Of a stretch of DNA of 32,165 nt, positions 1,062-25,579 are shown one piece after another. This DNA is from a bacterium (lineage in GTDB: Bacteria; Patescibacteriota; Minisyncoccia; UBA6257; 02-FULL-45-10c): NCBI GenBank assembly GCA_030700025.1, contig JAUYKI010000017.1:66748-98912 (forward strand), given 5' to 3'. The notes under the pieces were generated by a model. That model worked only from the letters and a program-made list of their open reading frames with translations. It had not been told where the DNA came from and did no database searches. Numbering within the stretch: the stretch's first letter is position 1; the number at the start of each line of letters is the position of its first letter. The position numbers and the translations under genes are program-made.

Positions 1062-1089
1062 TTGACCATTTAAAAAATTATGGTAATAT
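1062..1089 (+). promoter_or_regulatory. Promoter for the 1135-1826 gene pair
   Basis: TTGACC (1062-1067), 16-bp spacer, TAATAT (1084-1089). It fits sigma-70 consensus well and leaves a leader of about 40 nt before the ATG at 1135. Confidence 0.6.
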
Positions 1090-1134
1090 TCAACGCGGTA
1101 GTTTGATAGTTAGCGGGGATTAAAGGGGGATGGA

Positions 1135-1284
1135 ATGGTGTATGTAAATCTGGGCTTTCTGGTCGGTGGCGTTGCCATCGGAGCAATAGGGAATTTTTTG
1201 GAGGGGGCTCTTGGATTGGTTATCCGAGTGTGCGGAGGTTTAATTATGGGCATTGCTACTTTGAATCTGGCGGGAGGCCGGTGA
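1135..1284 (+). CDS. 49-aa glycine-rich membrane peptide
   Basis: A short ORF (MVYVNLGFLVGG...LNLAGGR) begins at ATG 1135, just after a GGGGGA ribosome-binding-like stretch. It is almost entirely hydrophobic, with glycines spaced as in glycine-zipper helices, enough for two short membrane helices. Its stop codon overlaps the start of the next gene (ATGA at 1284), which argues for translational coupling. I do not recognise a family. The tight overlap and the promoter upstream support it as a real gene. Confidence 0.6.
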   Translation: MVYVNLGFLVGGVAIGAIGNFLEGALGLVIRVCGGLIMGIATLNLAGGR

Positions 1285-1826
1285 TGCGCCACCTAGATTC
1301 GGATGATCCGCATAGCCAGGATAAAGATTGGGCAGTCATTCAAGAAGCTCGGACTTTAGCCGAACAGCGTTCAGAATCCGAAATTTTTCGGATGCAAAAA
1401 CGGCGCGCCAAGATTCTTCTTGGAAACGAACAGCCGGAAGGTTTTACCGCGCCCACCTCGTTTTATCTTTTTTGGTGCCATTATTGCGAACATTGGGCCA
1501 AAGATTATCCGCACGGTTTTGAATCCAGCCAGCGCCTGAATTGCCATTTTTGCGGAGAATCGCATAAGCTGACTTCCTGGCGGGTGAGTTTTTGGATGAC
1601 CGTTGGAACTTTACGGTTTGGCGTTGCAACTTTGGCGCATCGCTGGTTCGGATTGAATTTGATTAAAAATTCCACTCCGGAGGAATATTTGAATGACGAG
1701 GTAAAAGTTAGCGGTATTTGTGAAAAATGCGAGAGACCCTTTGAAAGATTAATGATGGGCTGCCAATTGAATGAGTACATCCGCCATTGCCAGGATTGCC
1801 GGCCGCTGCCTCCATCTTCTAATTAA
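1284..1826 (+). CDS. Cysteine-rich zinc-ribbon protein, function unknown
   Basis: A 180-aa protein with nine cysteines, most in CxxC pairs: C65-C68 with C87-C90 form one likely zinc ribbon, and C146-C149 with C169-C172 (plus C160) a second. Between them (about 100-125) is a moderately hydrophobic aromatic stretch that could be a buried or membrane-proximal helix. The N-terminal 50 residues are charged and likely helical. The ATG at 1284 overlaps the stop of the membrane peptide, so I prefer it over an in-frame upstream start at 1230 that lies inside that peptide's coding sequence. No catalytic motif is visible; a nucleic-acid or protein-binding role is only a guess. Confidence 0.65.
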   Translation: MRHLDSDDPHSQDKDWAVIQEARTLAEQRSESEIFRMQKRRAKILLGNEQPEGFTAPTSFYLFWCHYCEHWAKDYPHGFESSQRLNCHFCGESHKLTSWRVSFWMTVGTLRFGVATLAHRWFGLNLIKNSTPEEYLNDEVKVSGICEKCERPFERLMMGCQLNEYIRHCQDCRPLPPSSN

Positions 1827-1833
1827 TTAAAAA

Positions 1834-1860
1834 CCCCGATTTTATCGGGGTCATTTTTTT
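1834..1860 (+). terminator. Intrinsic terminator
   Basis: CCCCGAT/ATCGGGG stem with a TTT loop, followed by TCATTTTTTT. It ends the 1135-1826 pair and faces the convergent NlpC/P60 gene. Confidence 0.85.
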
Positions 1861-1872
1861 CTATAATATAGG

Positions 1873-2349
1873 TTAGAAATTAGTTGGTCGCGGGAGCGGA
1901 GCTAAAACTCTCCCGATTCTTACTGCGGCTTCCGGTAGGTCTTGCCAAGTTATTTCGGCGACGGATCTGGTTTTGCCATTGGCATGAATTATTTTTCCAT
2001 CGCCAACGTACATGGCAACGTGGCCGATATAAATCCGATTTGGCTCGTCGGGAAACAGTGAATCGTCATAATGGCCTTTGCCGCCTTGGAAAAATAATAG
2101 ATCGCCAACTTTGCAAGTTCCAGTGACCTTTTGAATGCTAGCGGCTTGCGCGATTCCGCTTCTTGGTAACTCCAGGCCGAATTGCCTATATAGGTATTGA
2201 GTCCAGGAAGAGCAATCAAAAGCCTCCGGAGCGTCTTCGGGCTTGGCGCCAAATTTATAAGGCGTTCCCAAAGTTGATCTTGCTAGAGCTACTAATTTTT
2301 CTCGGATGTCCGTATAGCCAGACCATTCGTAGGACTCGGGATCTTGCAC
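1873..2349 (-). CDS. NlpC/P60 family cysteine peptidase
   Basis: A 158-aa single-domain NlpC/P60 protein. The nucleophile is C46 in FDCSSW, the general-base histidine is H110 in GHVAMYVGDG, and H122 in IIHANG fits the third polar position. The family cleaves peptide bonds in peptidoglycan stems, usually D-gamma-glutamyl-diaminopimelate. No signal peptide or SH3 domain is present, so either the start is incomplete or the enzyme acts in the cytosol or leaves by another route. The start is GTG at 2349, with GGAGG 5 nt upstream. A good promoter sits further upstream. Confidence 0.88.
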   Translation of the reverse strand: MQDPESYEWSGYTDIREKLVALARSTLGTPYKFGAKPEDAPEAFDCSSWTQYLYRQFGLELPRSGIAQAASIQKVTGTCKVGDLLFFQGGKGHYDDSLFPDEPNRIYIGHVAMYVGDGKIIHANGKTRSVAEITWQDLPEAAVRIGRVLAPLPRPTNF

Positions 2350-2382
2350 GTTAACCTCCGGTGTTTTAAAAAAACTAACAAG

Positions 2383-2411
2383 ATTTTAGCACTAAAAACT
2401 GTTAAAGTCAA
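2383..2411 (-). promoter_or_regulatory. Promoter of the NlpC/P60 gene
   Basis: On the minus strand TTGACT (2411-2406), 17-bp spacer, TAAAAT (2388-2383). Confidence 0.65.
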
Positions 2412-2419
2412 ATTTCTAA

Positions 2420-3967
2420 TTAATTTTTTATTTGAAAAATAAATTCTCGGCTGTTATCAAATCGCTTTTCAAATTTAGGATTTAAATCCAAATATTGGTA
2501 AAGCAGGGGATTGCGCTGTTTTTCCACAAAGATATATTGGGCGCCGAAATCCTTTATTAAAACGTCGTCTACATTTTCCTGATTTTGGGTGGTGCAAATT
2601 GGTTCGGCGCAGGTAAGCCCCCAAAAATCATCTTTAGAAATATGATGGAATTTCCAATAGAGCCCAGCGTCATAATCATATTGGAAAATAGGATCCATCC
2701 CGCCGACATAATAATTTTCTTGATTCCAGAAAAAGAGCGCGGAAAAATTGTCCCAGTGCGTATTGAAAACTAGGTCTTTTGGATTAGTATTGTCCCGTAG
2801 CCAGACTGCCGCATCTTGAAATTTATCCGGCGTTACCGCGCGATTGGCTAAATTAAAGCCATTTTGATAAACACTGTATGGAAAAATAATTAAAAACACG
2901 GTTAGCAGGGCCATAGAAGCGGCGTTTTTAAAATAAGACTTTTGCGAGATTAAATAGGTATAAACCGCGGCGATAAATAAAACTCCGAATGCCACCCATA
3001 AAATATAGGCGCGGCGGGCAATGAATAAGCTCATTAGGGCAAAACCCAGGGAAAGCGCGCCGCTGGACCACAAAACAATCTGTTCGCGGACAGTAATTTT
3101 AGAAAAATAAAATTGGCGCCGGTATAAAGTCCAGGCGAAGATGACAATGGCCGGAAGCCAAATTATTAAGAATAAGGCGGAAGATTGCGTAAGCGCCCCC
3201 AAGCTTAGGGGAAACAATTCTTGCCCGAATAATAGCGGCAAATTATCCTGTTTTTCTAATAAAAGCTTTACCACCTGGACATAGGTCAGCTGGGCAATTT
3301 CCCAGAAATTAGGCCGTAAAATCCAGCCGAGAAGCGCCCCGCCCAAGGCGCCTAAATAGCCAGGCCAATTAATTTGTTTATAGATCGCTTGGGCGATAAA
3401 TATTGTCAGGGCGATTAGCGGGATTATCCAGAAAAAACTGATGTGGAAAAAAATAATTCCCGCGCTAAGCAAAGCCGTCAGCCGCCAGGAGCCGTTAATG
3501 ATTGCCGAAAACAGCAGAAGGCTGAGCGCTAAAGAAAGAATGTGGGGGCGGACCATTAATAACTGAAAAAGAGAATTAGGCACGGCGAGCAGGAATAAAA
3601 ACGGCCAAAAATATTTTAAGGAGAATTTTTCTCGGACAGCGACGCGGGCATAAGCCAGGAGAAGTAGGGAAGTAAGGGCTAATCCGGCAAGCTTAATTCC
3701 GGTATTTAAATCGCCGAAAGAAAAAGGAATTAAAAACAGATGGAAGCCGTACCATAAATCCGCCCCATAAGTCCGGATAGAAGAAAAATAAGTCCAGGGA
3801 AACTCGGTATTAAAAAGCGATTGGGTTTGATAAAGCCAGGCGTGGCGGATATGGTAAAAAGCGTCCGGGTCGGGAATATTCTGAGAGCTGAAGTGGAAAA
3901 ATGCGGAAGTGGCAATTACAATTCCGATAAAGACAAGAGTGTGTTTCTTGGTTACATTGTATATCAT
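2420..3967 (-). CDS. Multi-spanning GT-C-like membrane glycosyltransferase
   Basis: A 515-aa protein with about a dozen hydrophobic helices and a soluble C-terminal region of about 120 residues. After the first helix it has DPDAFYHIRHAWL (about 33-45), which resembles the acidic first-loop motif of GT-C enzymes such as STT3/AglB and PMT. These use polyprenyl-phosphate sugar donors on the outer face of the membrane. It is divergent from a GT2 polyprenyl-phosphate glycosyltransferase, which would supply such a donor, so a joint role in cell-surface glycosylation is plausible. ATG 3967 is preferred; TTG 3970 is an alternative. The two divergent starts lie only 6 bp apart. Confidence is high for a membrane GT-C-like protein and lower for the substrate. 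Confidence 0.65.
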   Translation of the reverse strand: MIYNVTKKHTLVFIGIVIATSAFFHFSSQNIPDPDAFYHIRHAWLYQTQSLFNTEFPWTYFSSIRTYGADLWYGFHLFLIPFSFGDLNTGIKLAGLALTSLLLLAYARVAVREKFSLKYFWPFLFLLAVPNSLFQLLMVRPHILSLALSLLLFSAIINGSWRLTALLSAGIIFFHISFFWIIPLIALTIFIAQAIYKQINWPGYLGALGGALLGWILRPNFWEIAQLTYVQVVKLLLEKQDNLPLLFGQELFPLSLGALTQSSALFLIIWLPAIVIFAWTLYRRQFYFSKITVREQIVLWSSGALSLGFALMSLFIARRAYILWVAFGVLFIAAVYTYLISQKSYFKNAASMALLTVFLIIFPYSVYQNGFNLANRAVTPDKFQDAAVWLRDNTNPKDLVFNTHWDNFSALFFWNQENYYVGGMDPIFQYDYDAGLYWKFHHISKDDFWGLTCAEPICTTQNQENVDDVLIKDFGAQYIFVEKQRNPLLYQYLDLNPKFEKRFDNSREFIFQIKN

Positions 3968-3973
3968 CAAAGT

Positions 3974-4654
3974 ATGCGTATTCTATCCATTATTATACCC
4001 GTTTTTAATGAGGAGCAAACAATAGAATCTATTCTTCGGCGGGTGGAACAAATCAATTTAGATAACATCCGGAAAGAGGTGATTGTGGTTGATGACGGGT
4101 CCGCGGATAAAACTAGAACCCTACTTAAGGGCTGGGAATCAAAATTTACAGTTTTGTATCACGAACGCAATCAAGGCAAGGGATCCGCAATTAAAACCGC
4201 TCTGTCTCTGGCGCATGGAGATTATACTATTATTCAGGACGCGGATTTAGAATATGACCCGAAAGACTGGCCCCAGCTTTTAAGGGCAATAGAAGAAGAA
4301 AAAGTAGCGGCGGTATATGGATCGCGGAATTTGGGCCCGGCCAAGCGGGGATATTTCTTTTTTTATTGGGGGGGCCGGCTGCTTACTCGTTTAATGAATT
4401 TTTGGTTTAGGTCGCAGCTCACCGATATTAATACCGGTTACAAGCTTTTTCGGACTGATATTTTAAAATCTTTAAATTTGCAGAGCCGGGGCTTTGAATT
4501 TTGCGAGGAAGTAACCGCGAAGCTGTTAAAGCGAAAATACGCGATTAAAGAAATTCCGATCGGCTATTCCCCCCGGACTTTTACCGAGGGCAAAAAAATA
4601 ACGTCCTGGGACGGTTTAGTTGGCATTTGGACGATTCTTAAAAATATTATTTAA
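3974..4654 (+). CDS. GT2 family (dolichol-phosphate mannosyltransferase-like) glycosyltransferase
   Basis: A 226-aa soluble GT-A fold enzyme. It starts MRILSIIIPVFNEEQTI and has the nucleotide-binding VVDDGS at 38-43 and the metal-binding DAD at 89-91 within DADLEYDP. The later NTGYKLFRTD segment is typical of DPM1-like proteins that transfer a sugar from a nucleotide donor to a polyprenyl phosphate. There are no C-terminal membrane helices, so it is the single-domain form. An in-frame extension to 3821 would run through the opposing gene and lacks family similarity, so ATG 3974 is chosen. No ribosome binding site is visible. Confidence 0.85.
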   Translation: MRILSIIIPVFNEEQTIESILRRVEQINLDNIRKEVIVVDDGSADKTRTLLKGWESKFTVLYHERNQGKGSAIKTALSLAHGDYTIIQDADLEYDPKDWPQLLRAIEEEKVAAVYGSRNLGPAKRGYFFFYWGGRLLTRLMNFWFRSQLTDINTGYKLFRTDILKSLNLQSRGFEFCEEVTAKLLKRKYAIKEIPIGYSPRTFTEGKKITSWDGLVGIWTILKNII

Positions 4655-4680
4655 CCTTGTTGGGCGCTTGCCCCGCTTGT

Positions 4681-4740
4681 CCTGAGTTGTATCGAAGGGA
4701 GCTTTATTGAAGGAGTGCCTGCCCTGAGTTTATCGAAGGG
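4681..4740. repeat. Two copies of a CCTGAGTT...ATCGAAGGG repeat
   Basis: CCTGAGTTGTATCGAAGGG (4681-4699) and a near copy one base shorter (4723-4740) lie in the spacer between the glycosyltransferase and the tRNA. The unit resembles the short CCTGAG...CGAAGG intergenic repeat seen in many bacterial genomes; this comparison is from memory. Confidence 0.6.
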
Positions 4741-4812
4741 TGCCTGTGGGAAGGATCGAACTTCCGACCAATGCCTTATGAAGACACTGCTCTACCACTG
4801 AGCTACACAGGC
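4741..4812 (-). tRNA. tRNA-Met (anticodon CAT)
   Basis: A 72-nt cloverleaf. Acceptor GCCTGTG/CACAGGC, T8-A9, D-stem GCTC/GAGC, anticodon stem GTGTC/GGCAT with loop TTCATAA (anticodon CAT), T-arm GGAAG-TTCGATC-CTTCC, discriminator A. CCA is not encoded. It lacks the initiator C1xA72 mismatch, so it is elongator Met, or possibly Ile after lysidine modification. Confidence 0.9.
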
Positions 4813-4840
4813 AGTTTGTGTTGAATATATTATATTAATT

Positions 4841-5224
4841 TTACTCTTTTGTAAAATTAAACTCTATATCTTTAAGTATATTAGATAAAATGGTTTTGCT
4901 ATAAACACCGGCTCGGCATACGCCATGCTTATATTTGTTATTTTTTCCAGCCGATTTTTTAATATAAGTTTTTGTAAACTGGCTTAGCGGCACGGATAAT
5001 TTATCAGACCAGTATTTTTTAGCTATATTTTCATTGCTATCGGGCCAAAGATGCAATCGTAATTTGATTTTATTGGCAGAAATTTTATAAAATTTATCAA
5101 GCCAAGCCATAAAATTTTTAATAATCCAGTAATCGGTGGAGGTAACCGCGACCATATAAACTCTATTAAAAGTTTTATCGCCTTCGCACCAATAGAGCAT
5201 TAAGCCTTCTCGTTTAGTCAGCAT
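4841..5224 (-). CDS. LAGLIDADG-like homing-endonuclease-type protein
   Basis: A 127-aa protein. MLTKREGLMLYWCEGDK resembles the LAGLIDADG helix followed by an acidic active-site turn. It continues with VAVTSTDYWIIKNFMAWL and then KIKLRLHLWPDSN and YSKTILSNILKDIEF, the alternating helix/strand layout of small single-motif LAGLIDADG proteins. This is family-level pattern recognition and not certain. It starts at ATG 5224; the longer in-frame ORF to 5356 would run through a terminator and tRNA-fMet and is rejected. It lies in the same orientation just downstream of the intron-containing tRNA gene. Confidence 0.5.
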   Translation of the reverse strand: MLTKREGLMLYWCEGDKTFNRVYMVAVTSTDYWIIKNFMAWLDKFYKISANKIKLRLHLWPDSNENIAKKYWSDKLSVPLSQFTKTYIKKSAGKNNKYKHGVCRAGVYSKTILSNILKDIEFNFTKE

Positions 5225-5250
5225 ATTAATTAATAATATAGTAAAAAAAC

Positions 5251-5276
5251 AAAAAATGCCCATTTGGGCATTTTTT
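5251..5276. terminator. Bidirectional intrinsic terminator after tRNA-fMet
   Basis: AAAAAATGCCC/GGGCATTTTTT stem with an ATTT loop. It has T runs in both directions. On the minus strand it follows tRNA-fMet and precedes the endonuclease-like ORF. Confidence 0.85.
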
Positions 5277-5284
5277 GTTTTGCG

Positions 5285-5567
5285 TGGTTGCGGGAGTTGG
5301 ATTTGAACCAACGACCTCAAGGTTATGCGTACCACTACGGCTTGCGCCGCGTCCAATTATTATTGGAATTTGTGGTCTGGACTATACCTTAATCCGATTT
5401 TTGTCGGATTCCTACCGTCTAGTCTCTACACCTTATCGCCGAGGGCGATCTTGGCTCGGTATTATCCATAAGCGGACTTCACCGAATTTGATAGGTTATC
5501 CATTGAATATTGCTACTCAACGAGCCCATATTGAGCCTTGCGAGCTACCAGGCTGCTCTACCCCGCG
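5285..5567 (-). tRNA. Initiator tRNA-fMet (CAT), interrupted by a group I intron
   Basis: The exons are 5567-5534 (34 nt) and 5327-5285 (43 nt), giving a 77-nt tRNA with encoded CCA. The acceptor has the C1xA72 mismatch that marks bacterial initiator tRNA (5' CGCGGGG, 3' TCCCGCA-A-CCA). The D region reads GAGCAGCCTGGTAGCTC, the anticodon stem CAAGG/CCTTG with loop CTCATAA, the T-arm GTTGG-TTCAAAT-CCAAC. The split falls between U33 and C34. Without removing the 206-nt insert no tRNA can fold. A consensus promoter stands directly upstream. Confidence 0.93.
5328..5533 (-). ncRNA. Group I self-splicing intron in tRNA-fMet
   Basis: A 206-nt insert in the anticodon loop. Its catalytic-core words appear in the right order on the minus strand: a P-like segment (AATTCGGTGAAG), Q (AATACCGAGCCAAG), R (GGTGTAGAGACTAGACGG) and S (AAGGTATAGTCC). 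The 5' exon ends in U and the intron ends in G, as group I introns require. GGCU at the exon end can pair with GGCU in the intron with a U-G pair at the splice site (P1). The core resembles the small IC3 introns of bacterial tRNA genes. No ORF is contained in it. Confidence 0.92.
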
Positions 5568-5572
5568 AAGCT

Positions 5573-5601
5573 ATTATACCGACAGACCCGCGAATTGACA
5601 A
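5573..5601 (-). promoter_or_regulatory. Promoter of tRNA-fMet
   Basis: Minus strand TTGTCA (5601-5596), 17-bp spacer, perfect TATAAT (5578-5573), 5 nt before the tRNA 5' end. Its -35 shares bases with the opposing promoter. Confidence 0.85.
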
Positions 5602-5622
5602 TAGTCAGAATTTAATCATACT
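5595..5622 (+). promoter_or_regulatory. Promoter of the 5660 gene
   Basis: TTGACA (5595-5600), 16-bp spacer, CATACT (5617-5622). The -35 overlaps that of the tRNA promoter on the other strand. Confidence 0.6.
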
Positions 5623-5659
5623 ACGCTAGTTATTTGATAATTCCGCGATAGGAGGATTA

Positions 5660-5983
5660 ATGATCATAAAGAGGGCAGTCATCGTGTTAATCGGCGCGTC
5701 TATTACACTGTTCGGATTTTATTTAGTCGCACTGCTTAGAGAAACTCAAGTGCCTCTCTTGCTGATACCTATTATGTGCGTGGTATGTTTTGGATTGGTG
5801 ATTGCTTGCGAGGCTTTGAGGAAAGATATTTGGAACAAACTTAAAAATAAAGGAATTGGTCATTTTCTGAAAACTAGAACGATCTTACTGATCAGTTCTT
5901 GCTTAGCTATTTTCCACGAGGTTGGCACAGTCAAAATAGACAGAATTACGGGAGAATTGATCCCGGTTATTAAAAAAAGATAA
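5660..5983 (+). CDS. Small membrane protein, function unknown
   Basis: A 107-aa protein with two clear hydrophobic helices (about 5-28 and 33-52), then a basic stretch (RKDIWNKLKNK) and a third weaker helix (about 73-87). The ATG at 5660 follows AGGAGG at ideal distance. No family recognised. It has its own promoter, divergent from tRNA-fMet. Confidence 0.65.
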   Translation: MIIKRAVIVLIGASITLFGFYLVALLRETQVPLLLIPIMCVVCFGLVIACEALRKDIWNKLKNKGIGHFLKTRTILLISSCLAIFHEVGTVKIDRITGELIPVIKKR

Positions 5984-6010
5984 TCCGTTGAGCTAAGCTC
6001 GGCGGACTTG

Positions 6011-6045
6011 CCCCTTACTCTTGTGAAAGAGTGCGGGGTTTTTTT
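6011..6045 (+). terminator. Intrinsic terminator
   Basis: CCCCTTACTCTT pairs with AAGAGTGCGGGG with one mismatch, followed by TTTTTTT. It ends the 5660 gene. Confidence 0.75.
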
Positions 6046-6046
6046 A

Positions 6047-6075
6047 TTGACAATTTAAAAAGGAAATGCTAAGAT
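6047..6075 (+). promoter_or_regulatory. Promoter of the 6138 gene
   Basis: TTGACA (6047-6052), 17-bp spacer, TAAGAT (6070-6075). Its -35 begins right after the preceding terminator. Confidence 0.75.
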
Positions 6076-6137
6076 ATTCAACGCACGTTAACAATACGCA
6101 CTCTCTAATACAGAGGGGCGCAAATAAGGAGTCGCAA

Positions 6138-6905
6138 ATGACAGCAGCGCGCGTGATCTTGGGGTTGATAATGGCGGGAACTGTGGTGAGTAATTGGCTG
6201 GTTTGGCATTGGGGCTGGCAGGAGTCGGGATGGGCGATGGCTTGGATGGTTGCTTCAGCGGCGCTGTTCGTAGCCGCGGTTACGGTAATGGCTATAACCT
6301 TGGTAAACTTCCAGCAAAAAAACGGACGATTTGTTTTGGACAGCAATAGTTGGATTGCCAGAATTATGGGCTGGGGGCGTGGCGATAAAGTTACGATTTG
6401 TTCCCTTTTCTGGACAACGGTCCTTTTAATTTCGGCAGCGGTGGTTGGCTTTGTTTTGTTGCTAACCGGCCTTTTTGCCGCCACAGAAGCGGGCTGGGTA
6501 GAAACCATCAGGGTTGTCCTATTCGTTGTTGCCACGGTAGCCGGAATTGTTCTATTGGTGGTAGGGGCAGCCAACGCAGAGGACTACGTTGGGACTAAAA
6601 TGCGCCAGGGTTCAACGGTCTGGCGAGGCGTAGGTAATATAGCGACTTATGTTCTTCCGGTGGTTACTGTGGTTATTTTGCTGGCAGTATTGGGATTTAT
6701 TATTTATGACGCGGGAGTAGTGAAATTTTTCACCGGCCTTGTTCTTGTTTGTTTGATTGTTGGCGGGGCGTTCGGGCTGGTATTCGGCGTTGTGGCTGGC
6801 GTTAAGTCGATTCGGGAGTCCGCGGTGGGCAAAATTTTGTCTTCCGGCTGGCATCACGTTAAGTCCCGCACTTGTCCGGTTGTTTCGGTAATGGATTTGA
6901 AGTAA
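6138..6905 (+). CDS. Polytopic membrane protein, function unknown
   Basis: A 255-aa protein with about six hydrophobic helices (for example residues 4-24, 33-58, 85-110, 124-146, 167-190 and 197-222) joined by short loops. The ATG at 6138 has AAGGAG upstream; the upstream in-frame extension to 6066 would start inside the promoter region. No conserved catalytic or transport motif is recognisable. It is monocistronic, between a clear promoter and a terminator. Confidence 0.65.
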   Translation: MTAARVILGLIMAGTVVSNWLVWHWGWQESGWAMAWMVASAALFVAAVTVMAITLVNFQQKNGRFVLDSNSWIARIMGWGRGDKVTICSLFWTTVLLISAAVVGFVLLLTGLFAATEAGWVETIRVVLFVVATVAGIVLLVVGAANAEDYVGTKMRQGSTVWRGVGNIATYVLPVVTVVILLAVLGFIIYDAGVVKFFTGLVLVCLIVGGAFGLVFGVVAGVKSIRESAVGKILSSGWHHVKSRTCPVVSVMDLK

Positions 6906-6913
6906 GTATTTAT

Positions 6914-6942
6914 TCCCCCTGGCTTAGGCCGGGGGATTTTTT
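6914..6942 (+). terminator. Intrinsic terminator
   Basis: CCCCC-GGC stem pairs with GCC-GGGGG (one bulged T) around a TTAG loop, followed by ATTTTTT. Confidence 0.8.
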
Positions 6943-7016
6943 ATCCCGTTAGAGATCCGTCCTCGCCAATGGCGAGTGGCGGCAGCCACCTCGGGGCGGC
7001 TTATCTCTAACGGGAT
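6943..7016. repeat. Folded palindromic element (three-way junction) upstream of pheS
   Basis: A perfect 14-bp outer stem (6943-6956 with 7003-7016) encloses a 46-nt inner region. That region holds two more hairpins (CTCGCC-AAT-GGCGAG at 6962-6976; TGGC-GGCA-GCCA at 6977-6988) and a further short closing helix. A T-rich stretch follows on the plus strand. It may be a structured RNA, a second terminator or a REP-like mobile palindrome. Confidence 0.75.
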
Positions 7017-7030
7017 TTTATTTTTTGTAG

Positions 7031-7036
7031 TATAAT
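7031..7036 (+). promoter_or_regulatory. -10 box of pheS
   Basis: Perfect TATAAT ending 9 nt before the pheS ATG. No ribosome binding site fits, so the mRNA is probably leaderless. No clear -35; that region is inside the folded element. Confidence 0.65.
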
Positions 7037-7045
7037 TTTATATAA

Positions 7046-8086
7046 ATGGCCAATCTCGAACAGCTTAAAAAACAGGCGCTGGAAGCCGTTAAGCAGTCTA
7101 AGGATATTAAGAACCTTGAAGAATTAAGGGTTCGGTTTTTGGGCAGGGAAAAAGGAGAATTGACTAAGATTTTGCGGTCTTTGGGAGCCATGCCGTTGGA
7201 AGAAAAAAAGAAAGTCGGACCCGCGGCCAATGCTTTGCGGGCGGAGCTGGAACAAGCGTTAGATAAAAAATCAGCCGAGTTAAGAGTTAATAGTCTGAAG
7301 TTTGAAGTTGGTTTAGACATTACTATGCCGGGAACTAAAGTCGGCGTAGGCCATTTGCATCTTTTGACTCAAGTGGAGAAGCAGGTCCGGGAAATTTTTA
7401 AAGCAATGAATTTTTCGGTGATTACCGGCCCGGAAGCGGAAACTGAAAAGTATAATTTTGACGCCTTAAATATACCCAAGGATCATCCGGCCAGGGATAT
7501 GTGGGATACCTTTTGGCTTCGCCAAAACGAACAACTAACTATTAACAAAAAACTATTAACAGAAAGTAAAAAGTTAAAAGTTAAAAGTGAAAAGTTATTG
7601 ATGCGGACCCATACTTCCCCGATGCAGGTCCGATTCATGGAAAAACACAAACCGCCGTTTCAAATTATTGTTCCGGGACGGGTTTTCCGTTTTGAGGCCA
7701 CGGATGCTTCGCACGAAATTAATTTTTATCAGGTAGAGGGCTTGATGGTTGGCAGGGATGTTAATTTGGCAAATTTTAAATTTGTTATGAATGAATTTTT
7801 TCAAAGGCTTTTCGGGAAAGGGATTAAATTACGTTACCGGCCAAGTTATTTTCCTTTTGTGGAGCCGGGCCTGGAAATTGATATTGAATGGAAGGGGAAG
7901 TGGCTGGAAATTATGGGCGCCGGCATGGTGCATCCGCGGGTATTTGAAGCGGCCCATTATAATCCGCGCGATCTTCAAGGCTTTGCTTTCGGCCTTGGTT
8001 TGGAAAGAATCGCGATGATTAAATACAATATTCCGGACATCCGGCTTTTTTACTCGGGCGATTTACGATTTATTAAGCAGTTTTAA
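7046..8086 (+). CDS. pheS: Phenylalanyl-tRNA synthetase alpha subunit
   Basis: A 346-aa catalytic subunit of the heterotetrameric PheRS, which charges tRNA-Phe. An N-terminal coiled coil (about 1-85) binds the tRNA. The class II core follows, with TGPEAETEKYNFDALNIP, motif 2 around RTHTSPMQVRFM...VPGRVFRFEATDASHEINFYQVEG, and motif 3 in GFAFGLGLERIAMIKYNIPDIR. A lysine-rich insert (about 160-183) precedes the conserved RTHTSP. It is encoded by repeats (AACTATTAAC twice, then four 7-bp units near AAAAGTT) and has no counterpart in typical PheS. pheT follows after a 166-bp repeat-filled spacer. Confidence 0.97.
   Translation: MANLEQLKKQALEAVKQSKDIKNLEELRVRFLGREKGELTKILRSLGAMPLEEKKKVGPAANALRAELEQALDKKSAELRVNSLKFEVGLDITMPGTKVGVGHLHLLTQVEKQVREIFKAMNFSVITGPEAETEKYNFDALNIPKDHPARDMWDTFWLRQNEQLTINKKLLTESKKLKVKSEKLLMRTHTSPMQVRFMEKHKPPFQIIVPGRVFRFEATDASHEINFYQVEGLMVGRDVNLANFKFVMNEFFQRLFGKGIKLRYRPSYFPFVEPGLEIDIEWKGKWLEIMGAGMVHPRVFEAAHYNPRDLQGFAFGLGLERIAMIKYNIPDIRLFYSGDLRFIKQF
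7569..7596 (+). repeat. Four 7-bp repeats inside pheS
   Basis: AAAAGTT, AAAAGTT, AAAAGTG, AAAAGTT in tandem, within the coding sequence. They encode part of the KLKVKSEKL insert. Confidence 0.85.
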
Positions 8087-8092
8087 TAATGA

Positions 8093-8245
8093 AATACCAA
8101 TATACTAATACATGCGAATAATAGTATGCGAATGCCTTAACGAATAGGCGCATACGAATAAATTTTTTATATTCGTATAATTAGTATGAATTAGTATTTC
8201 ATAAGTATTATTAGTATGAATTCGTATATTAGCATTACATTAGAA
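8093..8245. repeat. AT-rich direct/inverted repeat cluster between pheS and pheT
   Basis: The spacer is made of variants of ATTAGTATGAA, ATTCGTATA and their complements, including ATGAAATAC (8090s) matched by GTATTTCAT (about 8194-8202), and GCGAATGCC against GGCGCATACG. It can fold on itself and has no coding potential. Confidence 0.6.
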
Positions 8246-8252
8246 TAAACAT

Positions 8253-10241
8253 ATGAAATTTAGCTTTAATTTAATCAAAAAATTGGCGCCGGGGCAGTAC
8301 GATGAAAAACTTTTAACCGAAAAGCTGAATTTGCATTCTTTTGAAACAACGGATTTGGGCAATGGCGTTCTGGATATTTCCGTGCCGGCCAACCGGTTTT
8401 CGGATATTGCTTCTCATTTAGGAGTTGCTTTGGAAGTATCAGTAATTTTCAAAACTAAATTAAGCGATTTTTTATCTAAAATGCCGAAATTTGATTCCAA
8501 GCTATCCGGGCCTTCAGTAGAAGTTCAGGATAAAAATCTTTGCCCTCGTTATATGGCGGCTTTTGTTTCCGGTGTGAAAGTCGGCCCGTCGCCGAAATGG
8601 CTGAAAGATATTTTAGAAGACTGCGGCATCCGTTCCATTAATAATGTGGTGGATGTGATGAATTACGTGATGCTGGAAATCGGCCAGCCGATGCACGCTT
8701 TTGACGCCGATAAATTAAAAGGCGGGATTGTTGTCCGCAAGGCAAAAAAGGGGGAAAAAATAGAAACCATTGATGGCCAAAAGTTTGATTTAGACAGCGA
8801 CACCTTGGTAATTGCCGATTCTAAACAGCCGTTGGCTATCGCCGGCATCAAGGGCGGTAAATCCAGCGAAGTAACCGATAAAACTAAAAATATCTTAGTG
8901 GAAGCGGCGAATTTTAACGGCGTGAATATTTATAAAAGCTCCCGTCGGCTGGGACTGCGCACGGATGCCTCTAATCGGTTTATGCACGATTTGAGTCCGG
9001 CCCTGGTTGAAATGGCAATGCATCGGGCATTGGCGCTTCTGCGGGAATTAGCCACCGCAAATGCGGGGCAAGCCGACGGAAAAGACGGCAAGCCGACGGA
9101 TGTTTATCCGAAAAAACAATCCAAGAAATTATTGGAATTAAATACGGGTAAAATAAATAAATTAATCGGATATGATTTTAACGAAAAAGAATTAGCCGAT
9201 CTTTTTAGCCGTTTAGGTTTTAAGCTGGAGGGGAAGCTTTGGCAGGTTCCGGAATGGCGGATGGATATCAATAATCTGGAAGATTTGGCGGAGGAAGTAG
9301 CCCGGTTTTCCGATTACAACAAGCTTCCGGCGCTTCCGCCGGCAGTGGCTTTGGGCGTGGCCGAGGAGGCGGAAGAAATCAGCTTAGTGGATAAAGTCAG
9401 CGGTTTTTTGAAGGGCGCCGGTTTTAGCGAGTCCTATAATTATTCTTTTATATCTAAGGAAGAAGCCGGAGCCTTGCCTAAGGGGATTTTTGGCGCCGAG
9501 AAGCCTGTGGAGCTGTTGAATCCTATCAGCAATCAATCGGCTTATTTGCGCGATAGTTTGGCACCGGGATTATTGCGGAATTTGAAAGATAATTCCCGAT
9601 TTTATAGTGACATGAAAATTTTTGAAATGGGAAAAATTTTTGGAGAGGGGCGGAGCGGAGTTAAAGAAACTTTGGCGCTGTCAGCGGTTATTTCCGGAAA
9701 AAATAGCGCGCTGGAAATTAAAGGATTAGCAGATTCGTTATTTACCCAGTTGGGACTGACTGAATATTTAACGCCGGATTTGAATATCGTTTCTGATTTT
9801 TTGAAATCCGGAGAGGCGTTGCGGATTGAAACCCCCGAACATCAGGTGCTGGGTTATTTGGGCTCCCTGAAAGATTTTAAAAACGGAGCGATTATGGAAA
9901 TTGATTTGGAAAAATTATTAAAAGAAGTGGACGAAGAACGCGAGTTTGAGCCGATTGCCAAATATCCGGCTATTGAGCGCGATATTTCTATTTTAGTTTC
10001 TAAATCGGTACGCACCGGCCCGATTCTGAATTTTCTTTACAGCGTCAGCCCCAAATTAGTGGAAGACGTGGATTTAATTGATTACTACGAAGATTCCAAA
10101 CTGGGCGCCAATCATAAGAGCCTTACTTTCCGGATTGTTTTTCGAAGCGAAGACCATACTTTAACGGATCCGGAAGCCGATCGGGAAATTGCTATTATTA
10201 ATCAGATTTTGACGGACAAGTTTAACGCGGAGTTAAGGTAG
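8253..10241 (+). CDS. pheT: Phenylalanyl-tRNA synthetase beta subunit, short form
   Basis: A 662-aa PheT; the bacterial norm is about 790-800. After MKFSFNLIKKL the chain passes within 40 residues to LDISVPANRFSDIASHLGVALEV, the segment that normally follows the EMAP/OB-fold tRNA-binding domain, so that domain is missing. The B3/B4 editing region (RYMAAFVSGV...NVVDVMNYVMLEIGQPMHAFD), B5 (ELNTGKINKLIG), the catalytic-like core (ESYNYSFISKEEAG...LLNPISNQSAYLRDSLAPGLL) and the C-terminal ferredoxin-like anticodon domain (KYPAIERDISILVSKSV) are all present. No ribosome binding site stands out before ATG 8253. Confidence 0.96.
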   Translation: MKFSFNLIKKLAPGQYDEKLLTEKLNLHSFETTDLGNGVLDISVPANRFSDIASHLGVALEVSVIFKTKLSDFLSKMPKFDSKLSGPSVEVQDKNLCPRYMAAFVSGVKVGPSPKWLKDILEDCGIRSINNVVDVMNYVMLEIGQPMHAFDADKLKGGIVVRKAKKGEKIETIDGQKFDLDSDTLVIADSKQPLAIAGIKGGKSSEVTDKTKNILVEAANFNGVNIYKSSRRLGLRTDASNRFMHDLSPALVEMAMHRALALLRELATANAGQADGKDGKPTDVYPKKQSKKLLELNTGKINKLIGYDFNEKELADLFSRLGFKLEGKLWQVPEWRMDINNLEDLAEEVARFSDYNKLPALPPAVALGVAEEAEEISLVDKVSGFLKGAGFSESYNYSFISKEEAGALPKGIFGAEKPVELLNPISNQSAYLRDSLAPGLLRNLKDNSRFYSDMKIFEMGKIFGEGRSGVKETLALSAVISGKNSALEIKGLADSLFTQLGLTEYLTPDLNIVSDFLKSGEALRIETPEHQVLGYLGSLKDFKNGAIMEIDLEKLLKEVDEEREFEPIAKYPAIERDISILVSKSVRTGPILNFLYSVSPKLVEDVDLIDYYEDSKLGANHKSLTFRIVFRSEDHTLTDPEADREIAIINQILTDKFNAELR

Positions 10242-10338: not shown

Positions 10339-10896
10339 ATGGTCACCAGCGCCGGCGTGGAAGTCCTGGGTCCTTTTTCAACTCCGGTTAATTATGACGC
10401 TGATTTGGAAAAAACAATTTCTTTGGATAATTATGACGTCCGGGATCCGCGTATTACTCCTAAGAATTTTCCGCCCCGCCGCGCCGGAGAGGCAAAATTG
10501 GATATTTATTTAATTTGTTTTGGAAAGCCGATTGCCACCCGGAAGGTTAACGCGGAGTTGAAAAATATGAAGATGCGGCCCGCGGAACTTCTGGAAGTAT
10601 TGCCTTGGGCTAAAGAACATCCGGATTTTCAACGCGAATTTCCGATTGTGGTTGCGGGAACAGTCTGGATTGACCATAGTCTGACGCGTTCTCGGCGCAG
10701 TACCCCAGTAAAGCCGGATAAAAACCAGAACAGCGACCGCTATATGCCGTGCCTTTGGGGATTGCGGGATCAGCGCGCGTTGAATCTTAATTTGCTCGGA
10801 GCGACTTTTGAAGAAGCGGTTAATAAGGAATGGCAGCCGTTTTGCCGTTTTGCGGCAGTTCAGTTGCGTCAGGGCAGTAAAGCGCCGGGTGAATAA
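10339..10896 (+). CDS. DGR-target-like protein (undiversified paralogue 1)
   Basis: A 185-aa soluble protein, clearly homologous to the DGR target at 15348. Shared blocks are ITPKNFP with ITEKNFP, MRPAELLEVLPWAKEHPD with YRPAELPEGLAHAKANPD, FPIVVAGTVW with YPIVILGSVW, and the final CRFAAVQL with YRFLAVRK. The last 80 residues correspond to the C-type-lectin-like region that the DGR diversifies, but the DNA there does not match the template repeat. It also has a proline/lysine insertion after TVW. GGGAGG precedes ATG 10339. A terminator hairpin begins before its stop codon. Function unknown; ligand binding is inferred from the fold. Confidence 0.75.
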   Translation: MVTSAGVEVLGPFSTPVNYDADLEKTISLDNYDVRDPRITPKNFPPRRAGEAKLDIYLICFGKPIATRKVNAELKNMKMRPAELLEVLPWAKEHPDFQREFPIVVAGTVWIDHSLTRSRRSTPVKPDKNQNSDRYMPCLWGLRDQRALNLNLLGATFEEAVNKEWQPFCRFAAVQLRQGSKAPGE

Positions 10897-11059: not shown

Positions 11060-11548
11060 ATGGTGGATGCACCGCTCAAACCGTTAGCGCTTGCGCCGAA
11101 AATCGAAACGCTGTCTCTCGGTGGCTTTGACTACGGCCGTCCGCTGGGAGAGCTGATTGATGATGGCGGATTTGAGGGGATTCATCCGGATATCAAAATT
11201 CCGGGTAGATTCCGAATTTTCGGAAATCGCTGCAGCCAGGAAGTTCAGCTGGTGTGCTTCGACCGGATCCTGACCTTTGATGAGGCGATCGCCGGGTTGG
11301 ACAATCTGGCCTGCCGTCCGGCAGCTCTTCCGGAGCAGCTGGCGTTGGCGGTCAAGTTCAAAGAGGCGTATCAGCAGGGGTGGATTCCGGCCCTGGATTC
11401 GATCTGGCACAAGAGCAGCGAGGAACGCCTGGTTCCGCTTCTCTGCGTGATGGAGTTGAAAGGAAAGCCGAGCCAGCGCACCTTGACCCCCTACAACTGC
11501 CTCCGGAGATTTCCGTCTGCAACCCGTTTTGCGGCTGTGAAGCTGTGA
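11060..11548 (+). CDS. DGR-target-like protein (undiversified paralogue 2)
   Basis: A 162-aa protein of the same family as the DGR target. GRPLGELIDDGGFEGIHPDI matches TRPLANMLKEDGQFDWVHSDI in the target, CRPAALPEQLALA matches YRPAELPEGLAHA, then DSIWHK aligns with GSVWRD, and the end is TRFAAVKL. Its codon use is richer in G and C than that of its neighbours. No TR-like sequence is present in its 3' end. ATG 11060 follows AAAGGAG. Strong promoter and terminator make it a single-gene unit. Function unknown. Confidence 0.75.
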   Translation: MVDAPLKPLALAPKIETLSLGGFDYGRPLGELIDDGGFEGIHPDIKIPGRFRIFGNRCSQEVQLVCFDRILTFDEAIAGLDNLACRPAALPEQLALAVKFKEAYQQGWIPALDSIWHKSSEERLVPLLCVMELKGKPSQRTLTPYNCLRRFPSATRFAAVKL

Positions 11549-15254: not shown

Positions 15255-15347
15255 TATAATGCCTAAAAAGGCACAGGTTCTTTAAGAAGAAACTAAAACC
15301 AACCAAGCGGTAGATCGCCCTTGGCGACAGGCCGAAGGAGAAAAAAG

Positions 15348-15950
15348 ATGAAGAGCGAGTATGCTTCCGGGTTTAAGATTGCGGCAAGCATCTTTCAGAA
15401 GCTTTTGGAAGCCGTGGAAGATGCCGGCGGAACGGATGCGGATGTCCGCCGGATTGAGACCAATAGCAATCTGCGCAAGCAGATTGCGGAGTTGGTGGTT
15501 CAGGGAAAAAAGTTGGTTGATGGCACCATCCGTCTCCTCGTTGACTACACCCGCCCTCTGGCAAACATGCTCAAGGAAGATGGCCAGTTTGACTGGGTCC
15601 ACTCGGACATCACCGAAAAGAACTTCCCAATCACCAAACGTCCCAACGGGGAAGCGGACCTGAAAATGTTCCACTTCAATCGAGACATCAGCTCTGACCA
15701 AGTCATCCAAGAAATGAACAAAGAAGGATACCGTCCCGCGGAACTCCCGGAAGGCTTGGCCCACGCTAAAGCTAACCCGGATGAGCAGCGGAAATATCCG
15801 ATCGTGATTCTCGGCTCTGTCTGGCGGGACTTCCTTGGTCGCCGCTTCGTCCCGTATCGCTGCAGTGATAGCGATGAGCGGGGCCTGTACCTGAATTGGT
15901 TCGACCGTGAGTGGCTCGAGGGCTACCGTTTCCTCGCAGTTCGCAAGTAG
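15348..15950 (+). CDS. DGR target protein with variable C-terminal lectin-like region
   Basis: A 200-aa protein. Residues 1-65 look helical (FQKLLEAVEDAGG...LRKQIAELVVQGKKLVDG). Residues 66-156 are the domain shared with the paralogues at 10339 and 11060. Residues 157-200 are encoded by the variable repeat and have the C-type-lectin-like pattern ending YRFLAVRK. Codons differing from the template at adenines give residues 161, 163, 165, 167, 172, 179, 181, 185, 187, 190 and 192; R171 stems from a non-adenine difference. AAGGAG precedes ATG 15348; the TTG at 15321 would give an unlikely basic extension. No signal peptide is seen, so the ligand may be intracellular or export is unconventional. 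Ligand unknown. Confidence 0.92.
   Translation: MKSEYASGFKIAASIFQKLLEAVEDAGGTDADVRRIETNSNLRKQIAELVVQGKKLVDGTIRLLVDYTRPLANMLKEDGQFDWVHSDITEKNFPITKRPNGEADLKMFHFNRDISSDQVIQEMNKEGYRPAELPEGLAHAKANPDEQRKYPIVILGSVWRDFLGRRFVPYRCSDSDERGLYLNWFDREWLEGYRFLAVRK
15816..15946 (+). repeat. DGR variable repeat (VR)
   Basis: 131 bp aligned without gaps to the template at 16297-16427 (offset 481). Eighteen differences are at template adenines and one is T to G (15859). The last 20 or so bases (CGTTTCCTCGCAGTTCGC) are identical and act as the presumed initiation-of-mutagenic-homing segment. Confidence 0.95.
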
Positions 15951-16809: not shown

Positions 16810-17775
16810 ATGAAAATTCAATTGATTCATAAATTTGAAGACATAATCAGCGTAGAAAATCTATTAGACGCCTGGAAAGAGTTTGTCCGGGGAAAAAGGC
16901 GTAAACCGGACGTTCAGGAATTTTCTATGAACTTAATGGATAATATCCTATTACTCCATTCTGACCTCGCTGATTTTACCTATAAACACGGCGGTTATCA
17001 AGCTTTTAACATAAGCGACCCTAAGCCGAGGAATATCCACAAGGCCAGCGTCCGGGACCGCCTGCTTCACCACGCTATATATAGAATACTTTATCCATTT
17101 TTTGACCGGACTTTTATAGCCGATTCTTATTCCTACCGGATAAATAAAGGCACGCATAAAGCCATAAATCGTTTCCGCTCTTTCGCTTATGAAGTCAGCC
17201 GGAATAACACTAAAACCTGCTGGATATTAAAGATGGATATAAGAAAATTTTTTGCCAATATTGATCACCGGATACTTATGCGGGCGCTATACCGCGGTAT
17301 AGCAGATAAATATATCTTATGGATCTTGAATGAAGTAATTAGGAGTTTTCCTAAGGGCTTGCCTTTGGGTAATTTAACATCCCAGTTATTGGTAAATATC
17401 TATATGAATGAATTGGATCAATTTATAAAACATAAATTGAAAGCTATGTATTATATCAGATACGCGGATGATTTTGTGATTTTATCTCAAAATAAGGATT
17501 GGCTGGAAAATCAGATAAAGCCGATCCAAGATTTCTTATCAGAAAAATTAAGGTTGGAATTACATCCCAACAAGATTGTTATTAAAACTTTAAGTTCCGG
17601 CGTTGATTTCCTCGGCTGGGTTAATTTCTTTGATCACCGGGTATTAAGGACAGCTACAAAAAGGAGAATGTTAAAGAGAATTAAAGAAAATCCGGCTGAG
17701 GCCACGATTAATTCTTATTTGGGGTTGATGAGGCACGGGAATACGGGAAAGCTAAAAAGAAAGATAATAATTTGA
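16810..17775 (+). CDS. DGR reverse transcriptase
   Basis: A 321-aa group II-intron-like reverse transcriptase. Motif A is KMDIRKFFANID (D143), motif B-like LPLGNLTSQ (184-192) is the form typical of DGR enzymes, and motif C is RYADDF (Y218-D221). It ends with LGWVNFF and LMRHGNTGKLKRK; there is no maturase or endonuclease domain. It copies TR RNA with adenine-specific errors. It is a little shorter than most DGR RTs (roughly 330-400). ATG 16810 has no good ribosome binding site. The family motifs and the TR/VR pair make the call secure. Confidence 0.96.
   Translation: MKIQLIHKFEDIISVENLLDAWKEFVRGKRRKPDVQEFSMNLMDNILLLHSDLADFTYKHGGYQAFNISDPKPRNIHKASVRDRLLHHAIYRILYPFFDRTFIADSYSYRINKGTHKAINRFRSFAYEVSRNNTKTCWILKMDIRKFFANIDHRILMRALYRGIADKYILWILNEVIRSFPKGLPLGNLTSQLLVNIYMNELDQFIKHKLKAMYYIRYADDFVILSQNKDWLENQIKPIQDFLSEKLRLELHPNKIVIKTLSSGVDFLGWVNFFDHRVLRTATKRRMLKRIKENPAEATINSYLGLMRHGNTGKLKRKIII
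17286..17303. repeat. 18-bp perfect palindrome inside RT, copy 1
   Basis: GCTATACCGCGGTATAGC. The same palindrome occurs at 22517-22536. Here it encodes LYRGIA within the reverse transcriptase. Confidence 0.85.
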
Positions 17776-24233: not shown

Positions 24234-24267
24234 ACTACAAAAATTTGCCATGGCATAAATTTGTAGT
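24234..24267. promoter_or_regulatory. 34-bp imperfect palindrome upstream of the PaaX/Cas2-like gene
   Basis: Centred on GCCATGGC, with outer arms ACTACAAA/TTTGTAGT; 14 of 17 pairs match. It covers the -35 zone of the following gene (its -10 TAATAT is at 24274-24279) and shares its core with the palindrome at 24852-24903. Possible autorepressor site or element end. Confidence 0.7.
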
Positions 24268-24287
24268 AGATGTTAATATAGTAATTC

Positions 24288-24827
24288 ATGGGTCCGATAC
24301 AAAAGAAAATACTTATTTTACTTCTCGGTGGTTTGTCTTTGGGTTTAGCCTATACTCCAAAACAAAGATATAAGACACTAAGAAGCATAGAAAAAGAATG
24401 GGAAAAGGTTAGTAATGATACTTTGCGCCGGGCTATTGACGGTCTTTATAAGAATAAACTTATTGATTTAAAGAAGGGAGACGGCAATTTAATAAAAATG
24501 ACTCTTTTGGATGGTGGCAAAAAAAGAGCGCTGAGCTATAAATTGGGAGAAATAAATATTAAAAAGCCGAAGTTATGGGATAAAAAATGGCGAATAGTTT
24601 TATTTGATATACCCAAGGATAAAAAGAAAATCAGGGAAGCATTTAGATTCCACTTAAAGCGGCTCGGATTTTATCAATATCAAAAGAGCGTTTTTGTTTT
24701 ACCTTATGAATGCGGTAATGAAATCGACTTTTTAATAGAATTTTATGAAATAAGGCCTTACGTTAGGCAAATTATAGCCATAGGTTTGGACAATAATTTG
24801 CATTTAAAGAACATCTTTAAATTATAA
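24288..24827 (+). CDS. PaaX-like protein with Cas2-like domain
   Basis: A 179-aa protein. Residues 1-90 look like a winged-helix domain (IEKEWEKVSNDTLRRAIDGLYKNKLI is the recognition-helix and wing area). From about 98, KKWRIVLFDIPKDKKKIREAFRFHL, LGFYQYQKSVFVLPY and the strand YVRQIIAIG give the ferredoxin-like fold shared by the PaaX middle domain and Cas2; D107 is where Cas2 has its catalytic aspartate. No cas1, cas4 or CRISPR array is nearby. It is bracketed by two related palindromes. It could be a self-regulating repressor or a nuclease of a small mobile unit. The ATG is 8 nt after the -10 box. Confidence 0.75.
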   Translation: MGPIQKKILILLLGGLSLGLAYTPKQRYKTLRSIEKEWEKVSNDTLRRAIDGLYKNKLIDLKKGDGNLIKMTLLDGGKKRALSYKLGEINIKKPKLWDKKWRIVLFDIPKDKKKIREAFRFHLKRLGFYQYQKSVFVLPYECGNEIDFLIEFYEIRPYVRQIIAIGLDNNLHLKNIFKL

Positions 24828-24851
24828 GCAAATTAAGCATTGTAAAAATTT

Positions 24852-24903
24852 CAGACTATCACTACAAATTTATGCCATGGCATAAATTTGTAGTGATAGT
24901 CTG
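24852..24903. repeat. 52-bp perfect palindrome without spacer
   Basis: 26-bp arms meet at CC-AT-GG; the arms start CAGACTATCACTACAAATTT. There is no T run after it, so it is not a usual terminator. It shares ACTACAAA...TGCCATGGCATAAATTTGTAGT with the 24234 palindrome on the other side of the PaaX/Cas2-like gene. Confidence 0.95.
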
Positions 24904-24966: not shown

Positions 24967-25018
24967 ATCGCCAAGTATTATAAAGAGATACGGTTCGTTG
25001 AAAAAAGGAGGTGTAGGT

Positions 25019-25579
25019 ATGTTAGACTCGTTGGTTGTTGCAACTTTAGTTTTTACTGCCAGCCTTAATGGTGAACAGGTATCAATACCAGTGAATCAAA
25101 AACACATCTGTGCTATTTGGGAAAAAATCGCAGACAAGGCTGAATTATCTGATATTGATGTTAGTGCGCCATTGCCGAAAATTCATTTTTTACAAAAACG
25201 TCGTTTTTATGACGACGATGTTATGGGAGAATATTATAAAAAGACGAAACGAAGAGGCCCGAAAATTAATATCTATTTAAAGACTATTCAAAAATCTATA
25301 CGGGAGAGTACTGGGGGGACAGAAACCAATCGTTATAAGGATTTAAAACTGGGGCGCTCTTTCAGGCAGAAGGTCCGGTTTAAAATTTATTCATGTATTG
25401 CACATGAATTAATGCACCACGCTATTGCCTTGAAAGGAGTTTATTTTTCAAGTCAACAACAAGAAATTATTATACTGCGGTGGATGTATGGCATTAATCT
25501 TAACGGACCCGCTGAATTGGACTCCCCATCCCCAGTGTTTATTTACCTCCGAGATTACTTAAATAATTATTCAGAATAA
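25019..25579 (+). CDS. HExxH-motif protein, possible zinc metallopeptidase
   Basis: A 186-aa protein with HELMHH at 129-134, an HExxH zinc-protease signature in a helix after a basic stretch. A third ligand could be one of the acidic residues about 20-30 residues further on, but is not certain. Residues 3-15 are hydrophobic (LVVATLVFTAS), a weak signal-like start. The N-terminal half has no known fold. ATG 25019 follows AAGGAGG; a TTG at 24998 is rejected because it precedes that site. Strong promoter and terminator isolate it. Confidence 0.6.
   Translation: MLDSLVVATLVFTASLNGEQVSIPVNQKHICAIWEKIADKAELSDIDVSAPLPKIHFLQKRRFYDDDVMGEYYKKTKRRGPKINIYLKTIQKSIRESTGGTETNRYKDLKLGRSFRQKVRFKIYSCIAHELMHHAIALKGVYFSSQQQEIIILRWMYGINLNGPAELDSPSPVFIYLRDYLNNYSE

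Follow-up and report, generated by a model that had tools for sequence, protein, structure and literature searches.

Matched palindromes bracket a PaaX/Cas2-like gene in Patescibacteria and also occur apart from it

Results

A PaaX/Cas2-like gene between two related palindromes

In a genome of the Patescibacteria, a gene for a predicted winged-helix protein with a Cas2-like domain is bracketed by two related palindromes, and the same arrangement recurs, with other palindrome sequences, at many homologous loci. The reading we prefer, to which we give an about even chance of being right, is that the gene would encode a DNA-binding protein accompanied by its own dispersing recognition palindrome, organised like the RAYT/REP systems without being a member of them. 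By the window we mean the whole stretch of 32,165 nucleotides that was analysed, which comes from an 830 kb genome (G000), and its relevant features are as follows:

24234..24267, no strand: upstream palindrome U, 34 bp, 14 of 17 pairs, overlapping the presumed promoter region
24277..24282, + strand: possible -10 box TATAGT, 5 bp ahead of the ATG, putative
24288..24827, + strand: PaaX/Cas2-like gene, 179 aa, with an N-terminus of winged-helix type and Cas2-like residues 95-179 (from Pfam, alignment and AF2)
24852..24903, no strand: downstream palindrome D, 52 bp, perfect, spacerless
24234..24903, + strand: whole unit U-gene-D, 670 bp, with ends deduced from related units in different neighbourhoods

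An initial annotation of this DNA had described both palindromes, and the spacerless, perfect 52-bp palindrome was indeed present downstream of the gene, at 24852-24903. The 34-bp upstream palindrome was found where it had been placed, but its symmetry is imperfect, with 3 of the 17 pairs mismatched, at positions 5, 7 and 8 counted from the centre. That the two have sequence in common was also right: U and D are 91% identical over 35 nt and have the common centre GCCATGGC. Palindromes this strong occurred about 0.09 times per kb in flanking DNA at distances above 1 kb, and not once in locally shuffled stretches of the same genome. Were TATAGT the -10 box, as is possible, the transcript would be leaderless and the -35 region would lie within U. 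Intrinsic terminators were considered and rejected, since the palindromes are loopless, have no T-run and also lie upstream of the gene.

The two domains assigned to the gene in that annotation were recovered as a Pfam match to PaaX_M (E = 1.8e-19, 70.1 bits against a cut-off of 24), a fold match of the AF2 model, and a weak MarR/SlyA-type winged-helix resemblance of the N-terminal half in profile comparison. The Pfam match to Cas2 was weak (E = 1.3e-4, just under the cut-off); the score against TIGR01573 (CRISPR Cas2) was 28.8, the cut-off being 24.5, and that against the equivalog model TIGR02277 (PaaX) was only 25.7 bits, against a cut-off of 264.55, so the protein does not qualify as a full-length PaaX. 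The AlphaFold2 model, made with 79 aligned relatives, had a pLDDT of 92.9. Because Foldseek alone gave no PDB match for it at E 0.001 or better, the fold was assigned from Pfam and VIA-align re-alignment; residues 95-179 of the model matched PaaX 8a39 with Z 9.6 and an rmsd of 2.5 across 80 residues, and Cas2 structures with Z 8-9, 8.9 among them. No cas genes were recognised by eye among the ORFs of the window, whether beside the gene or farther off.

Among the 79 sequences the invariant residues of the Cas2-like domain are D98, D107, R116, Q132, S134 and E151. D107 belongs to an FDIP sequence whose counterpart in profile alignments is the Cas2 YD/FD motif. We think it unlikely that the protein is a non-HUH palindrome-mobilising enzyme, whose Cas2-like domain would cut or nick the palindrome, seed solo copies and move its own gene. 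A hairpin-dependent transposon working by IS200/IS605 logic, with the Cas2-like domain instead of HUH cutting the palindromes, is in our judgement quite improbable: the alignment of D107 with the Cas2 motif and the invariance of D98, R116 and E151 speak for it, but the same 79 sequences contain no invariant His pair or Tyr of a HUH or catalytic-tyrosine pattern, and PaaX, a known repressor, has a Cas2-like domain too.

The palindrome pair recurs at homologous loci

At 105 homologous Patescibacteria loci, counted at the strictest of four thresholds, a palindrome was found upstream in 58, downstream in 66 and on both sides in 44, the expectation from flanking DNA beyond 1 kb being about 0.035 per side. 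A further 70 loci, mostly from a phylum-wide search and scored at a laxer threshold, gave 36 upstream, 39 downstream and 22 on both sides; these are largely new loci, five of them having been fetched twice. Since the pair in the window recurs at homologous genes, it is not a product of chance. Chance or an assembly artefact is thus extremely improbable as an explanation, for although a palindrome marks the start or end of some contigs, and self-complementary repeats can confuse assemblers, most pairs lie inside long contigs from many assemblies, the background rate is low and the recurrence refutes it. Contigs starting or ending at a palindrome (L135, L138, L146 and L129) are likely an assembly effect of self-complementary repeats, and we no longer take such ends as proof of a high copy number, since self-complementarity of a repeat can be enough to break an assembly.

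The palindrome sequence varies between loci yet is generally matched within a locus: of 59 testable loci, 49 had a U and D more similar than the 99th percentile of pairs taken across loci. Distances between palindromes were correlated with those between the proteins (Mantel r = 0.22, p = 2e-4, 80 loci), and shared ancestry may lie behind part of this. PaaX_M was present in 90 of 287 sampled genomes, with up to 11 copies per genome; one genome (G171) has at least 8 paralogues, most with a distinct palindrome of their own. The initial annotation had regarded homologues with no palindromes nearby as telling against its proposal, and such homologues do exist: they are a minority, together with most of the PaaX_M proteins of at least 230 aa, which served as an internal control. 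No relative was found on viral contigs.

A conserved core, variable arms and symmetric changes

In 94% of half-sites G occupies the third position out from the centre, mirrored by C on the opposite arm, which sets a core frame CNNNNG whose commonest forms are CGATCG, CTATAG, CCATGG and CGGCCG. Positions 4-8 from the centre tolerate mismatches, and the outer arms are paired but variable in sequence. A pattern with these three parts would be compatible with a dimer that touches the DNA both at the centre and farther out. In the reading we prefer, a dimer of the protein would bind the palindrome, with the variable outer arms read by its winged helices and the conserved CNNNNG core by the Cas2-like dimer; from U, the bound protein would repress the gene's own promoter, and the palindromes would spread by a copying process, with symmetry kept by template switching, selection or both.

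Of the positions at which U and D differ, 66 show symmetric and 105 asymmetric changes, a ratio biased upward because the palindromes had been chosen for symmetry; despite this bias, symmetric double changes far exceed what independent hits would be expected to give. Changes of this kind preserve arm pairing, a point in favour of the hairpin-dependent transposon, and both selection for pairing and template-switch repair (PMC8794818) can explain them. According to that source, replication template switching can also maintain such symmetric changes. The earlier inference from perfect symmetry to a recent origin or a strong function is weakened by this, symmetric changes being seen here both between and within genomes. 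Asymmetric pairs had no preferred orientation (7 direct, 7 inverted and 35 ties). We dropped the idea that symmetry spreads by copying into the local flanks, since outer arms that differ between paralogues may be paralogue-specific recognition arms.

Unit boundaries, neighbourhoods and the promoter

Three related units (L092, L099 and L106) have about 75% nucleotide identity over the gene and different neighbouring genes, and the similarity begins at the outer edge of U and ends at the outer edge of D. That relatives with differing neighbours are similar only between the outer palindrome edges indicates that the bracketed unit is real. The unit of the window sits between thrS and dnaE, and this site was filled in none of three relatives (G008 and G006 lack the unit, and in G022 thrS abuts dnaE), the emptiness of sites being judged against distant relatives and not against strains. 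Many units occupy conserved positions, as expected of vertical inheritance. The place beside trxB is one of these, filled in several genomes, and one homologue there (L017) is inverted relative to the others.

No near-identical gene copies were found at different loci, the best reaching about 78% nucleotide identity, and recent movement of whole units is therefore not seen. Nor did we find a cleavage site, a target duplication or a guide-like motif, which counts against the hairpin-dependent transposon. The suggestion in the initial annotation of a minimal mobile element, whose Cas2-like protein would act on cruciform ends, gained support as far as the unit itself goes, which ends at its palindromes and whose thrS site is, like two solo sites described below, empty in relatives.

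Of 47 loci, 37 have a -10-like box at the edge of U or just past it; among control segments the figure is 49 of 187. Since U usually touches such a box, autoregulation of the PaaX/Cas2-like gene is plausible, and to that extent so is the other suggestion made in the annotation, a self-regulated repressor with two operators. An ordinary autoregulated repressor would go further, in that two operators 600-700 bp apart would loop the DNA, the solo sites would form a small regulon and nothing would be mobile. We take this to be a serious possibility, though one we doubt. The position of the -10-like box favours it, sites and protein would co-evolve under it, and PaaX itself represses its own promoter, the E. 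coli protein reading TGATTC(N27)GAATCA, a 39-bp inverted repeat (PMC9493321); on the other side, the units retain their ends in new neighbourhoods, and the exact repeats of at least 34 bp are longer than a winged-helix dimer should need.

Right after the unit, at 24998-25579, lies a 193-aa ORF with an HELMHH motif and no Pfam match above the cut-off, possibly a metalloprotease to judge from that motif. Elsewhere the window holds a reverse transcriptase gene at 16810-17775 (321 aa, RVT_1 E = 9e-28) and three ORFs (10339-10896, 11060-11548 and 15321-15950) that look similar by eye, with a motif like RPAELPExLAxAxxxPxxQRKYPIV; another such ORF, also recognised by eye, directly adjoins a solo palindrome in L123.

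Solo palindromes away from the gene

Palindromes without a gene were found in the five genomes examined (G000, G006, G010, G012 and G171), the counts coming from sampled genome stretches or pattern searches. The genome containing the window has 3 + 1 such solo copies. The palindrome of its second paralogue, on contig C4, has three exact 34-bp copies elsewhere, one between convergent genes, one between divergent genes and one between a KH-domain gene and trmD, and on C9 a pyruvate-kinase-like gene has a degraded copy of the window palindrome upstream of it. Three solo copies were found in G006, two in G010 and one or two in G012. In 200 kb of G171 there are 17 palindromes with a PaaX-type core, 11 of them away from the gene, two of which (L295:5692 and L296:5217) are unlike any known element arm and are possibly unrelated. 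The compared stretches contained 6 PaaX-type palindromes in 278 kb and the 17 in 200 kb of G171, against none in 400 kb from three genomes without PaaX_M, a comparison that is not blind, as the core list was drawn from palindromes beside the gene.

Copies within one genome also differ symmetrically from one another, as CCAATT and CCAGTT in G006 and, on both arms, as CCAGCT, CCAGGT and CCAGTT in G010. The flanks of solo copies diverge beyond 36-40 bp, these copies have no GTAG/GTGG head, and no gene remnants were found within 600 bp of nine of them. The gap at trmD measures 312 bp in G000; in 19 relatives it does not exceed 170, and no PaaX-type palindrome is present there in any of them. In the gap upstream of rpe, the palindrome present in G010 is absent from 14 of 14 relatives. 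Further solo sites lie in a gap within an operon and within coding sequences, and the sites have no shared function. This argues against the small regulon of an ordinary repressor, the sites falling between convergent genes, in an operon gap and in coding sequence without being conserved at trmD or rpe. Palindromes at many unrelated loci without the gene had been named beforehand as evidence against the initial proposal, and the solo copies are of this kind, yet they are what a REP-like system would be expected to produce.

One solo palindrome of G171 lies within a mutM/fpg-like coding sequence (L288 3541-3572). At the identical mutM codons, a palindrome or near-palindrome is present in seven further genomes of this family, with length unchanged and arms that differ (orthologues with the site include L328, L330, L333 and L336), and other family members have none. 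In at least two genomes the mutM palindrome equals the genome's own PaaX palindrome: in G157 it equals that of the PaaX gene over 32 bp, and in G277 34 bp are common to three places. This indicates exchange or co-selection of sequence between mutM and the unit. The mutM site would be better accounted for by conversion, or by a conserved binding site, than by insertion, and a site that is fixed in position while its sequence tracks the genome's own palindrome is a point in favour of the ordinary repressor.

An ArsR-like twin with the same layout

On contig C13 of the genome containing the window, palindromes of the form AACATTCYRACATTCT..AGAATGTYRGAATGTT flank two small ArsR-like winged-helix genes:

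L300:6790-7059 and L300:8681-8956: ArsR-like genes, bracketed by AACATTCYRACATTCT..AGAATGTYRGAATGTT
L300 (G000:C13) 1089-9010; L304 19880; L306 2708; L168 1423; L290 684: positions of the AACATTCYRACATTCT..AGAATGTYRGAATGTT family

The encoded protein has 89 aa, with neither a nuclease domain nor a Cas2 domain, and solo copies of the palindrome occur on C13, C12 and C2. A related ArsR-like gene with one palindrome of this type was found in G017, and the palindrome only in G171. Because this twin has no Cas2 domain, the bracketed layout needs none, and the odds that the Cas2-like domain is a mobilising enzyme are lowered; its want of a nuclease domain likewise counts against the hairpin-dependent transposon. 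A repressor of 89 aa with the same layout is also in keeping with ordinary autoregulation, and the twin suggests a wider class of DNA-binding genes that would be bracketed by their own sites.

Discussion

If the reading we prefer is right, Patescibacteria, which are tiny, hard-to-culture bacteria, would have a widespread REP-like palindrome economy run by a protein unrelated to known REP enzymes, and this would connect the Cas2 fold with mobile DNA in a way open to testing. Were the protein in fact a mobilising enzyme, a Cas2-type domain would be at work in a mobile element outside CRISPR. The loci also offer many natural pairs of protein and palindrome in which the joint change of DNA-binding specificity and binding site could be studied. 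Searches of the open literature, outside which most subscription journals fall, returned nothing that connects PaaX to Patescibacteria, or to Cas2 together with palindromes, and nothing on such units, judged by title, for Patescibacteria with palindromes and mobile elements; these negatives do not prove novelty.

Among known systems, PaaX likewise has a winged helix followed by a Cas2-like domain, and its site spans a length similar to these palindromes. The 179-aa protein differs in having no C-terminal domain and in not belonging to a phenylacetate cluster, and its palindromes in being near-perfect, in bracketing the gene and in being dispersed. Residues 95-179 are like the Cas2/VapD fold, including the Asp that ends the first strand, but here the domain is fused behind a winged helix. 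PATEs of Haloquadratum are mobile units with palindromes near both ends (PMC3119063). We rejected them as relatives, as they are IS605-type transposon remnants without a gene.

RAYTs are HUH endonucleases with a catalytic tyrosine, related to IS200/IS605, and REPs are typically present in hundreds of copies. The Patescibacteria protein, in contrast, combines a winged helix with a Cas2-like domain and has no HUH/Tyr pattern, and its palindromes are longer (32-60 bp), loopless, without a GTAG head and lower in copy number. Of the features that define RAYT/REP systems, the HUH/Tyr enzyme and the GTAG/GTGG head are thus missing, and the two bracketing cognate palindromes and the dispersed copies are present. 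In the REP/RAYT organisation that we took for comparison (PMC2817692, PMC8266576), RAYT orthologues sit at fixed loci, with symmetric stem changes and no clear IS-like movement of the gene (PMC2817692). The Patescibacteria units are likewise found at fixed loci with no clear IS-like gene movement, and they resemble RAYT/REP further in the placing of the gene between two cognate palindromes, in co-evolution, in symmetric stem changes and in dispersed solo copies.
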